Assembly (NCBI GenBank): GCA_012518035.1
Contig: JAAYTL010000057.1
Coordinates: forward strand, 1-33,064
Direction: 5' to 3'
DNA from: Tissierellia bacterium
GTDB taxonomy: Bacteria; Bacillota; Clostridia; Tissierellales; Tissierellaceae
Length of the DNA: 33,064 nt
The notes below the pieces were generated by a model. That model searched no databases. It had not been told where the DNA came from and saw only the letters and a list, made by a program, of their open reading frames with translations. The position numbers and the translations under genes were made by a program. Numbering within the stretch: the stretch's first letter is position 1; every line of letters begins with the position of its first letter. Positions 1 through 16,027 of the stretch are shown here, one piece after another.

Positions 1-755
1 ATAAATTCAAGGGCATCTATTCCACTAGTTATTCCTCCTATTCCTATTACAGGAATATCCACTTCCTTACAAACCTCATATACCATCCTTAAGGCTATGG
101 GTTTTATAGCTGGACCTGAAAGGCCTGCAGTAATATTGTTAAAAATCGGTTTTCTTTTATATACATCTATAGCCAGTGCATTAAAGGTATTCACCAGGGA
201 GAGTCCATCTGCCCCTGCCTCTGCACAGGTTACAGCCATTTCCCTAATATTTTCAGCATTTGGTGAAAGCTTTACTATCATTGGCTTTTCAGCAACTTCC
301 TTACAGGCCTTGACCACCTCATAGGCTGACTCACACTTAATCCCAAAGGCCATACCTCCAGTTTTTACATTAGGACAGGATATATTCAATTCTATGAAAT
401 CAATCCCTGTCCCATTTAATAGCTTAACTCCTTCTACGTATTCCTCGATGGTCCCACCACCTAAGTTTGCCAAGATTACAAGATCCTTATCCTCCATAAA
501 ATCAAGCTCATCATCAATAAATCCCTGGACACCTGGATTCTGCAAACCAATACTATTCATCAAGCCTGCCGGAGTCTCATAAATCCTGATACCCTTATTT
601 CCCTCTCTTTTCTCCAAGGTCAAGCCCTTTGTGGAGATACCTCCCAGCCTTTCTATAGGAAAATACTCATCAAATTCTCTTCCAAAGCCAAAGGTTCCAG
701 ATGCTGCGATAACCGGATTCTTGAATTCAACACCACATATGCTAACCTTAGTCAT
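1..755 (-). CDS. pyrD: Dihydroorotate dehydrogenase, class 1B catalytic subunit (3' end cut by window edge)
   Basis: This is the FMN subunit that oxidises dihydroorotate to orotate in UMP synthesis. Class 1B enzymes work as a heterotetramer with PyrK and pass electrons to NAD+. About 251 N-terminal codons are visible and the frame is open to the window edge. Visible signatures are an N-terminal ASGTFGFG segment, NSIGLQNPG, the active-site loop NISCPN (the Cys is the class 1 catalytic base) and the phosphate-loop approach GIGGI near the edge. The ATG at 753-755 overlaps the end of pyrK by 8 bases, so the two subunits are probably translationally coupled. Symbol and class are supported by the adjacent pyrK. 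The C-terminus and any pyrE beyond it are outside the window. Confidence 0.96.
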
Positions 756-1482
756 TTAAGATAACCTCCTCCCCTAAAAAGACGGGACCTTCCTTACAGA
801 CCTTCTCCAGGCCCCTTATGGTTTCTATTGTACAACCTAGACAGGCTCCTATACCACAAGCCATCCTGTTCTCCATGGATACATATACTTGTGTGTGACC
901 TTTGGATTTCTTTAGCAAGGCCTCCATCATCGGAAGGGGTCCACAAGTATAGATTAAATCATATTTTTCTGGCTCCAGTATATCGATAATGTAGCCCTTG
1001 TGCCCTTTTGAACCATCCTCTGTAGAAACAAATACATTCTCTACAAAGGGAGAAAAAGCATCCAAATAGTAGGTGTTATTTCTAAAGCCCGCATAGAAAT
1101 CTGGTTTAGATTTTAGTACTCTGGCCAAATAGTACATTGGGGCAATGCCTATACCTCCAGATACCAGGGCAATTCTTTTATCCATCTTGTATGGGAAGCC
1201 ATTTCCTAGGGGACCTAGAATGCTTAGTTTATCTCCCCTGGAAAGTTTAGAAACAAGATGGGTCCCCCTGCCCCTTACCTCATATAGAAAGGTTATTTTA
1301 TTATCCTCTAGATTGGCTATACTTAGGGGCCTAGGCAAAAAAGGATCTAAACTATCCCAACCCCTAACCATATAAAACTGACCTGGTTGACCTTGAAAAT
1401 TACCTTCCAGTATAATTTCATATATGTTTGGACTTATCTCTAGATTAGATAGAATTAGTCCATCCTTATATCCATCCTTCAT
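748..1482 (-). CDS. pyrK: Dihydroorotate dehydrogenase electron-transfer subunit
   Basis: PyrK is the iron-sulfur flavoprotein that carries electrons from PyrD's FMN to NAD+. The 244-residue length is normal. The order is an FAD-binding barrel with RPLSIAN near residues 51-57, an NAD-binding domain starting with SGGIGIAP near 110, and a C-terminal [2Fe-2S] cluster with Cys209, Cys214, Cys217 and Cys229 (pattern CGIGACLGC, then a distant Cys). The ATG has a GGGAGG site about 7 bases upstream. It lies 51 bases after pyrF and overlaps pyrD by 8 bases. All four cluster cysteines are present, so it should be functional. Confidence 0.96.
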
Positions 1483-1533
1483 GTACTATCCTCCCTGTTA
1501 TTTAAATAGCCTGATACCTAACAAGACTAAGTC

Positions 1534-2385
1534 CTATCTACTAATATCCTCCTTCATGGTAAGTACAGCCTGTCTAATATAACCTTCAAAATTCTTATAT
1601 CCATGGGGTTTTTTCATATGGGCAGTGATAATTCCCCTTGATGAATTAACTACCCCACCATTTCCATCCCTTAGATAGAGGGCTGCATCGCTTCCCTTGC
1701 CACCTTGGGCCCCATACCCGGGAATTAAGAAAAACATGTTTTTATATCTATCCCTAATCTCTACCGCCTCATCTAGATGGGTCCCTCCTACAACAGCTCC
1801 CAGGGCAGAATAGCCACATGTTCCCATGTATTTGGCCCCCATCTCTTCCAGCTTGTCCCCTACATGATAGTAAACCCGTTTCTTTTTAGCCTCTAAATAC
1901 TCTATATCCTTGGCCCCTGGGTTCGAAGTCCTTAAGAGAACAAATAAGCCCTTATCTCCAGATTCTAAGTATTTCAGATATGGAGTTATGCTATCAAAGC
2001 CCATATAGGGGTTAAGGGTTATGAAATCTGCCTCAAATTCTCCTTCAAGGTGGGCCTTGGCATACATTTCAGCTGTGGATGAAATATCCCCTCTTTTTAC
2101 ATCTCCTATAGACAGAAGACCCTTGGATTTTAAATACTCCATGGTCCTTTTATATGCCATGATGCCCCTAATTCCATTGGCTTCATAAAAGGCAATTTGT
2201 AGCTTATAAATAGCAACAAGATCCTGGGTACAATCTATGATTCTTTTATTAAATTCAAAAATAATATCGTCTATATCCTGGTATCTAACTTTTATTTCCT
2301 CGGGAATATAATCTAGACTTGTATCCAAACCAACACAAACTATTCCCTTATCCTCCACTTCCTTAAAAAGCCTATCTATTATCAA
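1534..2385 (-). CDS. pyrF: Orotidine 5'-phosphate decarboxylase
   Basis: This enzyme decarboxylates OMP to UMP, the last step of the pathway. The 283-residue product has the type 2 PyrF pattern: VCVGLDTS near the N-terminus, the catalytic DVKRGDI loop, and the phosphate loop GYGAQGG. I start it at the TTG at 2383-2385, because AGGAGG lies 7 bases upstream and the resulting MIIDRLF start matches the family. An in-frame ATG ten codons earlier (2413-2415) has no such spacing and would overlap pyrC by 11 bases. With the TTG the gap to pyrC is 19 bases. A weak TTG start inside the operon could lower PyrF output relative to its neighbours; that is inference. Confidence 0.94.
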   Translation of the reverse strand: MIIDRLFKEVEDKGIVCVGLDTSLDYIPEEIKVRYQDIDDIIFEFNKRIIDCTQDLVAIYKLQIAFYEANGIRGIMAYKRTMEYLKSKGLLSIGDVKRGDISSTAEMYAKAHLEGEFEADFITLNPYMGFDSITPYLKYLESGDKGLFVLLRTSNPGAKDIEYLEAKKKRVYYHVGDKLEEMGAKYMGTCGYSALGAVVGGTHLDEAVEIRDRYKNMFFLIPGYGAQGGKGSDAALYLRDGNGGVVNSSRGIITAHMKKPHGYKNFEGYIRQAVLTMKEDISR

Positions 2386-2404
2386 AACAGACCCTCCTCT
2401 TCTA

Positions 2405-3619
2405 TTATCTTCCATCCTTTACCCTTATCCCAAAATTCCTCGAATACATGAGCCTCCCACCCTTAATGGTAGATACAATTTCGCCATACAGCTCCCATCC
2501 AGCAAAAGGCGTATTCTTGCCCTTTGAATAAAACTTAGTAGAATCTACAACTATCCTCTTGTCTAAATCAACTAGCACCAAATCTGCATCAAAACCCTTT
2601 TCAATCTTACCCTTGTTTAAGGAGAGGATTTCTCCACTTTTTCCTGAAAGTAGGCTGGAAAGTTTGCTCAGGTTAATTTTCTTATGCTTAACTAAGTTAG
2701 TGTAGGAAACTGAGAAGGCAGTCTCCAGTCCCACTAAACCTGGGCTTCCCTTTTCCGTATCCTCCTCTGTATGGGGAGCATGGTCAGTTGCTATGGCATC
2801 TACTGTGCCATCCACTATTCCCTTGATAATTTCATCTACATCCTCCTTATCCCTAATGGGCGGGTTAACCCTATAGTAATTATCCCATAAGGATAGATGA
2901 TGGGGAGTTACGTCACAGGTTATGAGCTTATGACCTTCTAGTTTTGCCCGTCTAATCTCCTTAATGGCCTCCCTAGTACTCACATGGGTTAAATGCAGCC
3001 TATTACCTACTAGCCGGGATAGATATATGTCCCTAAAGGTAATGATATTTTCAGACATCCTATAATCTATGGGAGTTAAATCCTCATCTTCTGCATGGGT
3101 CATGATTATTAAATCCTTCTCCTTGGCCTTGACCATGGCCTTATACATGACTAGATTGGATTTAATCCCCATGCCATCGTCAGTGATTATCTTTACCCTC
3201 TTGTCTATGGCATCCAGGTGGTCTAAGGTCTGACCATCAAAATCCTTTGTTATGGATACACATTGGTGAACCCCTATTAGCCCCAGCTCCTCTGCCTTCT
3301 TTAATACATAGTCTACCACTTCCATACTTGAGCATATGGGGTTGGTATTACCCATGAGGTTTACAAAGGTAAACCCACCCTTTAAGGCAGCCATAGAGCC
3401 GGTTTCCAAATCCTCCTTATAGGTATAACCTGGATCACGAAAGTGGGCATGTAGGTCTATAAAGGCTGGCATAAGGGTGAAATTATTTCCTTCAAGCACC
3501 TGGCAATCACGGTCTAAGCCCACACCATAATCTTGAATTAAACCATCTTGAATATATAAGTCACCATGAAAATCCTTGCTTTCATCTACAATCCTGACAT
3601 TTTTTATTAATAGCTCCAC
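2405..3619 (-). CDS. pyrC: Dihydroorotase (class I, zinc amidohydrolase)
   Basis: PyrC cyclises N-carbamoyl-aspartate to dihydroorotate. The 404-residue protein has the amidohydrolase barrel: the metal-binding DLHAHFRDPG segment near residue 56, the MGNTNP substrate loop, a metal-ligand His in THAED and another in THVST, and the catalytic Asp in ATDHAPH. The start chosen is GTG at 3617-3619, preceded by GGGAGG at 5-6 bases. A TTG ten codons upstream would run into pyrI without a ribosome site. Only 2 bases separate it from pyrI, so coupling is likely. Length matches bacterial class I enzymes. Confidence 0.96.
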   Translation of the reverse strand: MELLIKNVRIVDESKDFHGDLYIQDGLIQDYGVGLDRDCQVLEGNNFTLMPAFIDLHAHFRDPGYTYKEDLETGSMAALKGGFTFVNLMGNTNPICSSMEVVDYVLKKAEELGLIGVHQCVSITKDFDGQTLDHLDAIDKRVKIITDDGMGIKSNLVMYKAMVKAKEKDLIIMTHAEDEDLTPIDYRMSENIITFRDIYLSRLVGNRLHLTHVSTREAIKEIRRAKLEGHKLITCDVTPHHLSLWDNYYRVNPPIRDKEDVDEIIKGIVDGTVDAIATDHAPHTEEDTEKGSPGLVGLETAFSVSYTNLVKHKKINLSKLSSLLSGKSGEILSLNKGKIEKGFDADLVLVDLDKRIVVDSTKFYSKGKNTPFAGWELYGEIVSTIKGGRLMYSRNFGIRVKDGR

Positions 3620-3621
3620 TT

Positions 3622-4047
3622 TTACCTCCCTTGATATATATGGTCGCAATACTCACATTTATAGATTGCCTTTTCCTTATCAATTAAAACAAACTTATGG
3701 ACTATTTCCCTTTCTTCAGATGTAATACATCTGGGGTTTTTGCATTCTATTACTCCCTCAATTCTGTCTGGTAGGGATAGGTTTATCTTTTCTTTAATTA
3801 CCTCATCTTCTATGATATTAACTGTGATTTTAGGGTCTATAAATCCCAACATTGCTAAATCTAAGTCTATAACATTTTCTATCTTTATCATGTCCTTGCG
3901 CCCATATTTTCTGCTGATGGCGTTCATGATTAGGGCTACTGTGAAATTTGCATCCTGGAGTTTTAAGTATTCATAAATCTTCATCCCATAGCCTGGCTTA
4001 ATATGGTCAATTACAATACCCTTCCGAATACTATTGATTCTAAGCAT
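3622..4047 (-). CDS. pyrI: Aspartate carbamoyltransferase regulatory chain
   Basis: PyrI is the nucleotide-binding regulatory chain that assembles with PyrB and gives allosteric control by CTP/ATP. At 141 residues it is slightly shorter than the E. coli chain (153). The N-terminal half is the allosteric domain, and the C-terminal half carries the structural zinc site with Cys102, Cys107, Cys131 and Cys134 (CKNPRC and CEYC). Its ATG abuts the pyrB stop with no intervening base. All four zinc cysteines are kept, so a holoenzyme of the E. coli type is expected. This adds enzyme-level control to the transcriptional attenuator in front of pyrB. Confidence 0.96.
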
Positions 4048-4971
4048 CTAATCCACCCCCAACAATTTTATAATCAAGGCCATCCTGACATACATACCAT
4101 TTTTCACTTGCTGAAAATAGTAGGCCCTTTTATCATCATCCACTTCCATTTTTATTTCATTCACTCTAGGTAGGGGATGAAGTATGGCCAAATCCTCCTT
4201 TGCGGGCTCTAGTTTCTTCAGGTCCAGTATATAGCTATCCTTTAAGCGTATATAGTCTGCCTCATTAAAAAATCTTTCCTTCTGAACCCGTGTCATATAA
4301 AGGACATCTAGAATATCTATTACATCTTCCAATTTTTCTACTTCTAAATACTCTATCCCCTTAGATTCTAAAACTTCTATTTTTATATTCTCTGGAACCT
4401 TCAACTCCTTAGGGGATATTAGAACAAGTTTTACATTATCATATCTAGTCATAGCCTTTATCAAGGAGTGAACGGTTCTGCCAAATTTCAGGTCTCCACA
4501 TAGGCCTATGGTTAGGTTGTCAAGTCTTTCCTTCACTTGCAATATGGTATAGATATCAGCCAATGTCTGGGTAGGATGTTGGTGTCCCCCATCTCCTGCA
4601 TTGATTATGGGTACAGGAGAATACATGGCCCCATATCTGGGCGCCCCTTCCTTAGGATGTCTTAAGGCGATAATGTCTGCATAGGTTCCTACCGTCCTGA
4701 GGGTGTCTGGTAAATTTTCTCCCTTGGAAACAGAACTAGAGCCTGGCTCTGAGAAACCAAGTATCTTGCCACCCAATCTCAACATTGCGGCTTCAAAACT
4801 AAATTTGGTTCTAGTGCTAGGCTCATAAAATAAGGTACCAAGGATCTTACCATCACAAATATATGAAAAATCCTTTGGTCTATTGATTATTTCAGTTGTT
4901 AAGTCAAAAATGCTCTTTAGCTCCCTTACTGTTAAATCCTGTGAGTCTATAAGGTGCCTACCTTTTAACAT
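4048..4971 (-). CDS. pyrB: Aspartate carbamoyltransferase catalytic chain
   Basis: PyrB condenses carbamoyl phosphate and aspartate, the committed step of pyrimidine synthesis. The 307-residue protein carries the carbamoyl phosphate loop STRTKFSFE near residues 52-60, HPTQTLAD near 134, and HPLPR near 265. The ATG has AAGGGGG about 8 bases upstream. It is the first gene of the six-gene operon and follows a 130-base leader with a terminator hairpin. No carAB, pyrR or uracil permease gene is visible in the window. Confidence 0.97.
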
Positions 4972-9830: not shown

Positions 9831-9839
9831 CAAGAAGAA

Positions 9840-9869
9840 AAAAACTTGACAGTTTCCTATCAAGTTTTT
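9840..9869 (-). terminator. Terminator after the EamA transporter gene
   Basis: A perfect 10-bp stem AAAAACTTGA/TCAAGTTTTT with a 10-base loop is followed on the minus strand by more T residues. It lies 60 bases after the stop of the EamA gene and ends that three-gene operon. Confidence 0.85.
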
Positions 9870-9931
9870 CCAGCTTTTATATTATTTTTGATTTCCATAC
9901 ATAATGTCACAAAAGATAGTATGAGGCTATC

Positions 9932-10855
9932 TTATCTAGTGGATTCCTGGCTTATCTTATTCAATGCTTTCAGGTTAAAGTTATCTGCCTGGGAAAGCAT
10001 CATACCTGCCAGCATAAGAAGGCATCCTAAAATTCCCCTTGCTGGTAACTTTTCTCCCAAGATTAAGATTCCTCCAATAGCAGCAAATACAGATTCCATA
10101 CTCATAGCTATAGCCGCATGGGAGGCCTTAGCATGCTTCTGGGCTACTACCTGTAATGTATAGGCGATACCTACTGACATAAGCCCTCCATAAAGGATTG
10201 GAGCTGCTGCACTTATAATACCTTCTAATTGGATATCTTCGAAGATAAGGGCACATATAAGACTAAGTAGGGAACAGGTCCCAAACTGAAGAGATGACAG
10301 TTTCAGGGAGTTAACCCTCTTAGTAAAAAATCCTATTGCAATTATATGCATAGCCCAGAAAAAGGCCCCAATTAGTTGTAGTAAATCACCGTAAGCTATG
10401 GTAAAGTTTTCGTTGATACTCAAAAAATATAGACCTAGAGTGGCTACAATAGCTCCAACCCAGACATTGATACTTGTCTTCTGCTTTAGGAAGAGACCCA
10501 ATATAGGTACAAGTACTATATATAGGGTTGTGATAAAACCAGCCTTAGCGGCTGTAGTGTATACTATACCTACCTGTTGTAAGGAGGCTGCTATGAAAAG
10601 AATGCTCCCAGCTATAACCCCATATTTGATTAGGTAGGCATTATTCTCTTGAATATTCTTTTCTTTATCATCTTCACTTGGTTTTGCAAAAAACTTTATA
10701 ACTGGTAGGAGGGATAGACTACCTAGTCCAAACCTTAATCCATTATATGTAAAGGCTCCTAAATAATCCATTCCGACCCTCTGTGCTACAAAAGCAAGGC
10801 CCCAAATCATTGCTGTTATTAGCAACAATAAACTGGAGCGTAATTCTTTATTCAT
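9932..10855 (-). CDS. EamA/DMT-family transporter
   Basis: The 307-residue protein has ten predicted membrane segments in two EamA halves. The first half starts LLLITAMIWGLAFVAQR (residues about 10-26) and the second has GAFFWAMHIIAIGFF near 165. Family members usually export amino acids or other small metabolites. Related residues cannot fix the substrate. The ATG has GGAGG 6 bases upstream. It is the last gene of the operon SLC13 carrier / chorismate mutase / EamA, 28 bases after the mutase. That context makes an aromatic or carboxylic compound a reasonable guess, but only a guess. Confidence 0.9.
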   Translation of the reverse strand: MNKELRSSLLLLITAMIWGLAFVAQRVGMDYLGAFTYNGLRFGLGSLSLLPVIKFFAKPSEDDKEKNIQENNAYLIKYGVIAGSILFIAASLQQVGIVYTTAAKAGFITTLYIVLVPILGLFLKQKTSINVWVGAIVATLGLYFLSINENFTIAYGDLLQLIGAFFWAMHIIAIGFFTKRVNSLKLSSLQFGTCSLLSLICALIFEDIQLEGIISAAAPILYGGLMSVGIAYTLQVVAQKHAKASHAAIAMSMESVFAAIGGILILGEKLPARGILGCLLMLAGMMLSQADNFNLKALNKISQESTR

Positions 10856-10883
10856 AATATTCCTCCGTCATACTATTCTAGCT

Positions 10884-11150
10884 CTACAATCTTTTTCTTT
10901 GCTCTTCCTTACTCAAATCCATCATATATAAAAGGAACTTTTCCAAGGATTCAGCGAAATCTTGATTCTTTAATCTGCTGGTGTTTCTTGCTATTACCTC
11001 TTTTTCCCTGGACGCGTTATAAACAGGAAGTTTGTTAGCCTTTTTATAGGCAGCTATCTTTAATACAATCTCCATTCGCTCTTCAAATAGCGCTACTAAT
11101 TCTGCATCTATCTTATCAATCTTATCCCTATATACTTTTAAATCATCCAT
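10884..11150 (-). CDS. Chorismate mutase, AroQ type (monofunctional)
   Basis: It rearranges chorismate to prephenate, the entry to Phe/Tyr. The 88-residue all-helical protein is the minimal AroQ domain with no dehydratase or dehydrogenase fused. By alignment to the E. coli enzyme the active-site residues are Arg8, Arg25, Lys36, Arg48, Glu49, Ser80 and Gln84. The equivalent of Asp48 is Asn45. The ATG has AGGAGG about 6 bases upstream. It is unusual in lying between two transporter genes rather than in an aromatic amino acid operon: 34 bases after the SLC13 carrier and 28 before EamA. Confidence 0.92.
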   Translation of the reverse strand: MDDLKVYRDKIDKIDAELVALFEERMEIVLKIAAYKKANKLPVYNASREKEVIARNTSRLKNQDFAESLEKFLLYMMDLSKEEQRKRL

Positions 11151-11184
11151 AATCTTTCCTCCTAAATCTGTAAATAGATTTGAT

Positions 11185-12663
11185 TTAATACCCCATTAGG
11201 AAAACTCCTAATGGATATCCGATAACAACTGTAATAGCCACAGTAACAAACATGATGGCCAAACCATATCTCATCATTTGCCCGGCAGTAGTCCAACCAG
11301 AAGCACTAGCCAAGGCTACATTAGGATGGGCAGGGGGTGTGGCAAAGGCATAAGCCCCCATCATACCTATGATGGATGCAACTGCTGGTGTACTAATGAG
11401 TCCATCTGAGGCTATGCAGATTGGAATAGCCACAGCACAAACTACGGTTATAGTTACCATGTTTGATGATAGGTTGGTTTGAAGTGCTGCCCAAAGAGTA
11501 AATATCAAGACAAGGATTAAAGGACTTAAGTCTGATATCATAGGGGCTATATTGGCTGTCAACCAGTCTGTCAGCCCTATATCTGCGTTGGTCATTGCTG
11601 AACCTAAGGCTAGAGTAGAGGCTGTCATAATTAGACTAGCCCATGAAACCCCCTTGCTCATGGCATCATGGAAGTTCAACAATGGCTTACCTTCCACAGT
11701 GATTATTAACATAGCAACAGCCCCTAAAAGTGGTGGAAAGGCAGTTCCAAAACCATTTAAATAATCAGCTAAATCTGGAAGTACTGGTTTAATAAATTCT
11801 GGGACTACCCATAGGGCGATGACTAGGAAGAAAATAGCCAGTATTAGTCTCTCCTTCTTCTCCATAGGTTGTATATCTTTCTTTAAACTGTCCATATCAA
11901 TAGTGTCAAACTTGGACATGTCTGGTTTTAAAAATAGTCTAAATATAAGAATCATGACGACAAAACTGATTATACCAACAGGAATAGCAAAACCCATATA
12001 GGCTGCATAACCAATGGTATTACCAGTTGCCACCTCATAGAATCCCATTGCCATAATTGCAAATACATGGGCTATGGGTGTCATGCCTGAAGAAAGGGCA
12101 CAGGCTATGGTTTGCCCCATTACTAGCCCATTTGCCAGCCTATCATCCTTCTCTAGCCTTAGAACATGGCATATTTCATCCAAGATAGGAAGGTAGATTA
12201 CAAATAGAACTGTAGGAGACATGACCAAGCCTATTATTAAAACCGAGGCACAATAGGATATTAGGAACCACCAAGGTCCTCGTTTGGCTAGTTTACTGGT
12301 TATAAACCATATTGCACACCTTCTGATAAAGGATGTTTGCGATATTGCATAAGTACACATAAAGGTAAACAATAGAAATGAAAAAGTAGATCCCCCAATG
12401 GAACCTGCTAACATGCTATTGAAGTTGATTTCAGGCACAAAAGCTAAGGCAGCTAGGCACAAGAGGCTAGGCCAGTCTATGGATATTGTCAACCAGAGTA
12501 GCAGTACTCCTAGGAATATGCCCAAAACCTGCATTGCCGATTGAGACAGTCCCTCTGGCCCTGGAATGTATTTAAAAAATAATATGAATAATAAGGAAGT
12601 AAAAATCAAGATATTCCTCTTGGTGAATAAGCTATCACCCTGTGTATTTTTTTGGTTTGTCAT
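11185..12663 (-). CDS. SLC13/DASS-type anion transporter
   Basis: The 492-residue membrane carrier has about 11-12 hydrophobic segments. The two halves each have a Ser/Asn-rich pair typical of the divalent-anion sodium symporters. The C-terminal half contains TNLSSN (near residue 410) and AFATPPAHPNVALA (near 455), a family-like substrate and sodium loop. The family usually takes up dicarboxylates, citrate or sulfate. The start is ATG 12661-12663, with GAAGGGCGG upstream. A TTG/ATG pair 30-33 bases earlier has no ribosome site. It leads the operon with chorismate mutase and EamA. Confidence 0.9.
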   Translation of the reverse strand: MTNQKNTQGDSLFTKRNILIFTSLLFILFFKYIPGPEGLSQSAMQVLGIFLGVLLLWLTISIDWPSLLCLAALAFVPEINFNSMLAGSIGGSTFSFLLFTFMCTYAISQTSFIRRCAIWFITSKLAKRGPWWFLISYCASVLIIGLVMSPTVLFVIYLPILDEICHVLRLEKDDRLANGLVMGQTIACALSSGMTPIAHVFAIMAMGFYEVATGNTIGYAAYMGFAIPVGIISFVVMILIFRLFLKPDMSKFDTIDMDSLKKDIQPMEKKERLILAIFFLVIALWVVPEFIKPVLPDLADYLNGFGTAFPPLLGAVAMLIITVEGKPLLNFHDAMSKGVSWASLIMTASTLALGSAMTNADIGLTDWLTANIAPMISDLSPLILVLIFTLWAALQTNLSSNMVTITVVCAVAIPICIASDGLISTPAVASIIGMMGAYAFATPPAHPNVALASASGWTTAGQMMRYGLAIMFVTVAITVVIGYPLGVFLMGY

Positions 12664-12789
12664 AGATGTTTCCGCCCTTCTATTATTGTACATCAATATA
12701 GTATACCACTAATCCAAAGGATTTTGAATAAATTCTTAGGAAAACTCATTACCATATAGCCTAATTCCCCTAAAAAAGAAGGATTTGTC

Positions 12790-14878: not shown

Positions 14879-15658
14879 CTATAGTTTAAATTTGATAACC
14901 AAATCTGGATTTAAGACCCTAAAGGTAAAGGATTCAATTCCGAAGAATTTAACCTTTTCATCAGTATGGGACTCATAACCTATCGAAAAATCCTTTCCTA
15001 TAGTCATAGCTAAATCATCATGATTATGTGGTAATAAATAGGCCCCATCTACAACATGACTTAAAATTATCTTACCACCAATTAATTCTTTAATCCTCTT
15101 GTCTAATGGATATGCCGTTTCTTTGGACAAGATTCTGGTATAGGCTTCTTCATTTACCACTAGGGTAAAGGGGCCTGCTTCAAAGGCCTTTCTTAATTCA
15201 ATTAAGCCCTTGCTTATGGCTGCAACAATGTCAGAAGGATTATTCCCAAATGGGATTTCTTCTTTAGCATATGATTTTAAACCCTTTATGGAAGCACCCA
15301 AGCCATTATAGATGGCATTTTCTTCAAACAAAGCTAGGTCCTTCATTGCCTCTTCTAAGGGCTCATAATCTACATCCTTGGCTCCTCTTAGGATATTATC
15401 TAGCTCTCTTCTATCTAATTCGAATTCTATCCTTGCTTCTGTTAATGGCTGGACCATATAGGTTCCGTAGCTAACCTTTCCTGAACTATCTAGGCCCTCA
15501 AGCCTTCCTATAGGTAAAGTATTGAAATCCAATCCCTTTGGACCATGCACTGAAACCACTCTTCTGGCTGATAGATATGATAATATTACTTCAGTTGCCC
15601 TAGCATCTATCTCTTCCCATGCCAATTTAGATATAGGTGCCTTGTCTCTATTTAACAT
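14879..15658 (-). CDS. Encapsulin shell protein (family 1, linocin M18-like)
   Basis: This HK97-fold protein self-assembles into a nanocompartment. The 259-residue length and the N-terminal MLNRDKAPISKLAWEEID pattern are typical, as are RRVVSVHGPKG (near 32), the E-loop region GLDSSGKVSYGTYMVQPLTE and a C-terminal sheet with GYESH near 233. The start is ATG 15656-15658 with GGGGG 8 bases upstream. A GTG three codons earlier falls on that site and is rejected. It follows the ferritin-like cargo gene by 12 bases, so shell and cargo are co-expressed. The compartment probably stores iron. Confidence 0.95.
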   Translation of the reverse strand: MLNRDKAPISKLAWEEIDARATEVILSYLSARRVVSVHGPKGLDFNTLPIGRLEGLDSSGKVSYGTYMVQPLTEARIEFELDRRELDNILRGAKDVDYEPLEEAMKDLALFEENAIYNGLGASIKGLKSYAKEEIPFGNNPSDIVAAISKGLIELRKAFEAGPFTLVVNEEAYTRILSKETAYPLDKRIKELIGGKIILSHVVDGAYLLPHNHDDLAMTIGKDFSIGYESHTDEKVKFFGIESFTFRVLNPDLVIKFKL

Positions 15659-15670
15659 ATGTTCCACCCC

Positions 15671-16027
15671 CTATTTTAAATCTCCGATATTTAAACCATT
15701 ATCCTGAGCATTTTCGCCCTCTGAGCCTTCTCCTTCAGCTCCTTCTTCTATTGATGTTATATCTCCGTCTGTAAATAAGTAAGTTCTTAGCTCTTCATCC
15801 CATTTGTCCATGTTCCTTCTTAGCCATTCAATAGACATGACAGCATGCTCAATTTCCTCATCCCTATTATGCTCTAAGATCCTCCTTAATGTCTCGTCCT
15901 TTGTAGCAGCTACCCTTTGGTTATACCAGTCTACCGCTTCAATCTCTTCCTTCAGACTGTTTAATGCCCTTGATATGTCCCTGGTCTTTTCATCTAATGA
16001 TTCTACTGGTTCATGATATTGTGACAT
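15671..16027 (-). CDS. Encapsulated ferritin-like cargo protein (EncFtn)
   Basis: EncFtn is a half-ferritin whose dimers form the iron-oxidising site. It is packaged inside encapsulin. The 118 residues comprise two helices with Glu28, Glu58 and His61, equal to Glu32/Glu62/His65 of the Rhodospirillum protein, plus the WYNQR and EHNRDEEIEH motifs. An acidic linker (about 93-109) leads to the C-terminal targeting peptide GLNIGDLK (111-118), which docks the cargo to the shell. The ATG has GGGGGG 8 bases upstream. It is the first gene of the two-gene operon and needs peroxide- or oxygen-driven iron oxidation to act. Confidence 0.95.
   Translation of the reverse strand: MSQYHEPVESLDEKTRDISRALNSLKEEIEAVDWYNQRVAATKDETLRRILEHNRDEEIEHAVMSIEWLRRNMDKWDEELRTYLFTDGDITSIEEGAEGEGSEGENAQDNGLNIGDLK

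Follow-up and report, generated by a model that had tools for sequence, protein, structure and literature searches.

A monofunctional AroQ chorismate mutase in a Tissierellaceae genome without detected chorismate synthase and its possible role in providing prephenate for RNA hydroxylation

The carrier, mutase and permease genes and their conservation

The window, i.e. the whole stretch of 33,064 nucleotides that was analyzed, stems from a Tissierellaceae genome (G000 in the following) and harbors three adjacent genes encoding an anion carrier, a chorismate mutase (CM) and an EamA permease (Table 1). Reading frames, strands and coordinates were as given in the original prediction, and so were the spacers of 34 bases between carrier and CM (11151-11184) and of 28 bases between CM and EamA (10856-10883).

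Table 1. Features of the carrier-CM-EamA region (window coordinates)
Feature	Position	Strand	Properties
SLC13/DASS-type anion carrier	11185..12663	minus	492 aa; PF00939, profile match to LaINDY 5uld
Monofunctional AroQ chorismate mutase (CM)	10884..11150	minus	88 aa; PF01817 and TIGR01805 above cut-offs
EamA/DMT-family permease	9932..10855	minus	307 aa; PF00892
Intrinsic-terminator-like hairpin 3' of EamA	9838..9871	minus	15-pair stem and T run
Possible extended -10 promoter 5' of carrier gene	12700..12728	minus	9/12 consensus bases, TG ahead of second hexamer

The hairpin at 9871-9838 lies about 60 bases past the EamA stop codon and has the longest stem in the terminator scan of the region, which detected no terminator-like site inside the 34- and 28-base gaps. 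Five terminator-like sites were found in the region as compared to 3.4 (sd 1.8) expected, so that the count itself is no evidence. Promoter-like sites were as frequent as expected by chance (15 found, 16.0 expected), which makes the promoter listed in Table 1 a weak candidate. Carrier, CM and EamA are plausibly expressed as one transcript in G000. The proposal that they form one operon is thus supported in the window by the tight gaps and by a hairpin at the end with none in between, while the two genus-mates described below show that the gene order is not a lasting one.

The carrier was assigned to the Na_sulph_symp family (PF00939, E 6e-25) but failed to reach the threshold of TIGR00785, the model for the DASS subfamily (109.3 versus 198.6 bits). 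A profile match to LaINDY (5uld, E 2e-6) covered positions 42-472. Its SNT-type substrate motifs read SPT (first) and SNM (second), as they do in genus-mate G001 and in the relative G041. The substrate may lie outside the usual DASS range, and the protein probably transports di- or tricarboxylates in general. EamA was identified by PF00892 (E 3.7e-36); a search of the PDB with the carrier or EamA alone as query gave no match.

Two further regions of the window were noted. A Family 1 encapsulin shell gene follows an encapsulated-ferritin (EncFtn) gene at 14879-16027, the EncFtn C-terminus NGLNIGDLK resembling a cargo-loading tail, and a run of minus-strand genes at 1-4971 resembles a pyrimidine synthesis operon by eye.

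To what extent the trio is conserved was analyzed in a panel of 60 related genomes, G000 included, many of which are draft assemblies. The order SLC13-CM-EamA is kept in one of the two genus-mates (G001) and was found nowhere else; in the other one, G002, CM occurs together with a broken EamA gene, and a close carrier is missing. Longer flanks were available for 40 CM loci, 20 of them on contigs of named genomes and 20 in relatives (the G026 locus being in both sets); of these 40, one contained the carrier and two contained EamA, all within the two genus-mates. A gene order restricted to this genome had been named as a finding that would refute the proposed function, and with a single further genome, G001, this outcome is nearly reached. 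The operon of the window has thus not been maintained as a unit. CM of G001 is directly followed by a strong terminator-like hairpin with a T run, about 280 bases ahead of the EamA start, and in G002 CM is flanked by hairpins before and after. The G002 EamA gene (L047:5427-6350) carries an in-frame TGA near its start and represents either a pseudogene or a sequencing error. Since a hairpin parts CM and EamA in G001 and a stop interrupts EamA in G002, EamA is probably a neighbor of CM without a functional tie to it.

These observations bear on the function originally predicted for the trio, namely that an organic anion is taken up and converted to a prephenate-derived compound which is then exported by EamA. 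The tight spacing and the single end terminator in the window would fit such a pathway, but no prephenate-acting enzyme is encoded in the cluster, EamA is set apart in G001 and broken in G002, and none of the loci examined outside the genus contains the trio. We regard this function as extremely improbable. A secondary-metabolite operon was rejected as well, as the cluster lacks a prephenate-using enzyme and its order does not last.

AroQ mutases were found next to other genes in other genomes. The mutase gene adjoins the chorismate synthase gene (aroC) in 13 of the 24 genomes having AroQ, and a free-standing AroQ is part of a shikimate-type operon in Sarcina ventriculi and in an Acholeplasmatales genome (DTU056, locus L010; gene names by eye). 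A glutaredoxin-like gene, again by eye, adjoins AroQ in G015 and G021.

The AroQ chorismate mutase of the window

CM consists of a single Pfam domain over its 88 aa (CM_2, PF01817, E 2.7e-21) without a fused partner domain, and it reached 87.6 bits with TIGR01805 (CM_mono_grmpos), the curated cut-off of which is 71.2. A PF01817 search of G000 revealed no CM_2 domain other than that of the window. Its active-site residues are R8, R25, K36, N45, R48, E49, S80 and Q84, which we take to correspond to R11, R28, K39, D48, R51, E52, S84 and Q88 of E. coli PheA (E. coli numbering; residues up to 57 are backed by matches to 1ecm and 5vht, the serine and glutamine by the family alignment). Seven of the eight positions match the E. 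coli residues, the exception being Asn for Asp48. All eight positions are filled, so that the predicted intact active site, with this one exception, was confirmed.

CM was aligned with 43 homologues, and half of the 44 rows are fused and half free-standing proteins (22 each). That a lone AroQ domain is unusual was thus not confirmed. R8, R25, K36, R48, E49 and Q84 are identical in all 44 rows and S80 in 43, and the N45 column (E. coli Asp48 position) has D in most rows (32), followed by N (10) and by a single H and a single Q. The idea that Asn at this position alters catalysis was rejected because it occurs in 5/22 fused and 5/22 free-standing homologues. By its sequence CM is an ordinary monofunctional Gram-positive AroQ and looks able to catalyze.

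Within the genus, CM has accumulated few amino-acid changes as compared to saturated synonymous ones; dN/dS was dropped as a test of selection because of this saturation. By dN (0.204 and 0.184, versus 0.164), the CM branch of G000 exceeds those of G001 and G002 only slightly.

Chorismate synthesis and mutase types in the window genome and its relatives

The occurrence of chorismate mutases and shikimate genes was determined across the 60 genomes. AroQ homologues were detected in 24 genomes with the window protein as query, PF01817 being run on G000 alone, and the AroH mutase (PF07736) in 33. AroQ and AroH have unrelated folds. A mutase of either type is present in 55 genomes, and both types occur together in just two, G034 (partial AroH match) and G050 (AroH with 4 stops). 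The AroH remnant of G050 (G050:C8:68129-68335) belongs to a genome with AroQ beside aroC and looks like a replacement in progress.

Chorismate synthase was found in 52/60 genomes and DHQ synthase in 40/60, although PF01761 gave no hit in 3 of 14 control genomes, which means that a missing DHQ synthase is no proof of a missing early pathway. With the exception of G006, which is 55% complete, all genomes with aroC have AroQ or AroH (51/52), and of the 8 genomes without aroC, 4 are also devoid of any CM (Fisher p 0.0007, not corrected for kinship). When AroQ and AroH are mapped on a U32 protein tree, at least 7 switches between them are required, and aroC and CM are jointly missing at three places (G007, G024/G027 and G030). 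Since the mutase is kept with aroC while AroQ and AroH repeatedly replace each other, selection seems to act on the mutase activity and not on one gene, and either form will do. What appears to last is this activity, tied to chorismate synthase and not to the transporters.

Enzymes using chorismate or prephenate were much rarer. Prephenate dehydratase (PDT) was detected in 11/60 genomes, Chorismate_bind enzymes in 12/60, and prephenate dehydrogenase (PDH) was above the cut-off in 12/60 and clear in 11/60 (E <1e-20; G050 was dropped for a partial match of 28 bits, and 24 more genomes below the cut-off were left uncounted). PDT and clear PDH are both absent in 40 of the 51 genomes having aroC and a mutase, and 35 of these 51 lack PDT, clear PDH and Chorismate_bind (34 if the G050 PDH is counted), the search having covered these three families. 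Chorismate could also serve menaquinone synthesis via the futalosine route, but this use was discarded: PF02621 was not detected in G000, and the weak matches in 24/60 genomes (best 43 bits, cut-off 26) may well be solute-binding proteins.

Profile searches of G000 itself revealed no aroC, DHQ synthase, PDT (PF00800), PDH (PF02153) or Chorismate_bind, nor was an aromatic amino acid operon with another mutase found, which had been named as a finding that would make the window CM a chance neighbor. In G001 and G002, aroC sits between a DUF896-like gene and ogt. In G000, a stretch of 111 bases within a single contig separates the corresponding DUF896 and ogt genes, and it contains no trace of aroC, so that the loss of aroC at the syntenic place is real. 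An aroC gene located elsewhere in the organism and missing from the assembly is improbable: the genome is in 131 contigs, but it is 99.72% complete, the syntenic place is bridged by a single contig, and DHQ synthase is missing, too.

With aroC lost, CM of G000 is a mutase without a known home-made substrate. Either chorismate or a related acid is taken up from outside, or CM is a relic that has not yet decayed after chorismate ceased to be made. The missing aroC and DHQ synthase, the empty place between DUF896 and ogt and the joint disappearance of aroC and CM at three other places of the tree speak for a relic. Against a relic stand the filled catalytic positions, the dN close to that of the genus-mates as given above, and the single-contig genome G041, which likewise keeps a mutase (AroH) without aroC. 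A relic is a possible but unlikely explanation. In total four genomes (G000, G029, G041 and G045) have a mutase without aroC, which runs counter to a simple rule linking the two.

Uptake could involve the carrier itself, which would import chorismate, prephenate or shikimate for processing by CM and thereby salvage prephenate. The carrier adjoins CM in G000 and G001, and close carriers (>=57% identity) were found in three of the 60 genomes (G000, G001 and G041), all of which are without DHQ synthase and two of which have a mutase without aroC (Fisher p 0.03 and 0.01, tests selected post hoc and with n = 3). Moreover, prephenate added to E. coli cells reached the reaction in which it is needed (PMC6599085). 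However, G041 shows no mutase near its carrier, G001 still has aroC, the other two of the four genomes with a mutase and without aroC have no close carrier, and titles and abstract openings in the literature mentioned no DASS carrier of such acids. Salvage by this carrier is therefore considered very improbable.

U32 oxidases as possible users of prephenate

In E. coli, hydroxylation of tRNA U34 by the U32 hydroxylase TrhP needs prephenate, and TrhP-dependent hydroxylation is restored in cells by a mutase-only PheA or by added prephenate (PMC6599085). In Gram-positives TrmR methylates the hydroxylated U34, and Clostridia were described to have PepU32#1 and trmR and no trhO (PMC6599085). The cysteine motif C-x6-C-x15-C-x3-C marks U32 oxidases, and in the related hydroxylation of ubiquinone the oxygen stems from prephenate (PMC11574389).

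U32 proteins were detected in all 60 genomes, including 5 without any mutase. In 59/59 genomes trmR lies directly beside a gene for a U32 protein of TrhP length, the spacing ranging between an overlap of 50 bases and a gap of 135 bases and mostly being a few bases (G046, having no U32 protein of TrhP length, was left out of the count, and the ORFs of G002 and G006 were shortened). The essential Glu (E163) and the cysteines of the motif C-x6-C-x15-C-x3-C (C171, C178, C194 and C198) are invariant in 59/59 U32 proteins. The protein of G000 (G000:C114) contains PF01136 and PF16325 (U32_C) and has its best match in NCBIfam TrhP, but at 407 bits it is under the equivalog cut-off of 534 and was classed as a protein that may work like TrhP, not as TrhP. 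No mutase gene was seen to adjoin trmR or a gene for a U32 protein.

We propose that the AroQ CM would turn chorismate into prephenate not for the synthesis of Phe or Tyr but for Fe-S U32 oxidases, by which RNA would be hydroxylated in an oxygen-independent manner. The U34 of tRNA would be converted to ho5U by the TrhP-like product of the gene next to trmR and then methylated to mo5U, and a longer, RlhA-like U32 protein is probably a second user of prephenate. The shikimate pathway, or its late part, would accordingly be kept in most genomes of the order mainly for prephenate, and CM of the window genome would work on chorismate from neighbors or be a recent leftover. Flux, RNA modification and the reason for keeping the gene are what we infer here from the presence, absence and order of genes and from the intact catalytic positions. 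That CM supplies prephenate for U32-type RNA hydroxylation, with uptake or a leftover CM in the aroC-less window genome, has in our judgment an even chance of being correct. Against it stands that U32 proteins are universal and also present in the 5 mutase-less genomes, which must import prephenate or do without, so that co-presence fails to single out the tie and U32 presence was discarded as an uninformative test of prephenate use (60/60). Against it stand also the state of G000, shared by G029, G041 and G045, in which aroC is lacking, and the lack of a mutase gene adjoining trmR or a U32 gene. The far-reaching version is highly improbable. According to it, an order of anaerobic Firmicutes has lost the shikimate branches to amino acids, folate and quinones and keeps the pathway for prephenate alone as the oxygen donor of Fe-S U32 RNA hydroxylases, and in the window lineage, where chorismate synthesis is gone as well, the divergent SLC13 carrier feeds CM with community chorismate. 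Among the titles and abstract openings searched, largely from outside subscription journals, none described Phe/Tyr auxotrophs that retain the shikimate pathway in order to hydroxylate RNA.

Textbooks present chorismate mutase as the first step towards Phe and Tyr. If most genomes of an entire order indeed keep it, in two unrelated forms, without a Phe/Tyr pathway, prephenate would be worth keeping for itself. Such bacteria would lend themselves to testing whether prephenate donates the oxygen in U32 enzymes, and many 'incomplete' shikimate pathways in auxotrophic anaerobes would be explained.

When compared to known systems, the carrier aligns by profile with DASS/SLC13 proteins of the LaINDY type over the positions given above and differs from them in its SPT and SNM motifs and in scoring below TIGR00785. 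CM resembles AroQ proteins of TIGR01805 in length, domain, score and filled catalytic positions, and its Asn at the Asp48 position is common to 9/43 other aligned homologues; it differs in that its gene has two transporter genes as neighbors and that no chorismate synthase was detected in its genome. AroH (PF07736) stands in for AroQ in 31/60 relatives, and in the two loci inspected its gene precedes a cmk-like and a plsC-like gene (names by eye). With respect to TrhP and TrmR of E. coli and B. subtilis (PMC6599085), G000 differs by a U32 protein below the NCBIfam TrhP cut-off and by the missing Phe/Tyr branch, and is alike in having a PF16325 U32 protein with conserved cysteines beside a TrmR-like methyltransferase; the clostridial U32 protein was placed in PepU32#1, inferred to be a functional analogue of TrhP (PMC6599085).
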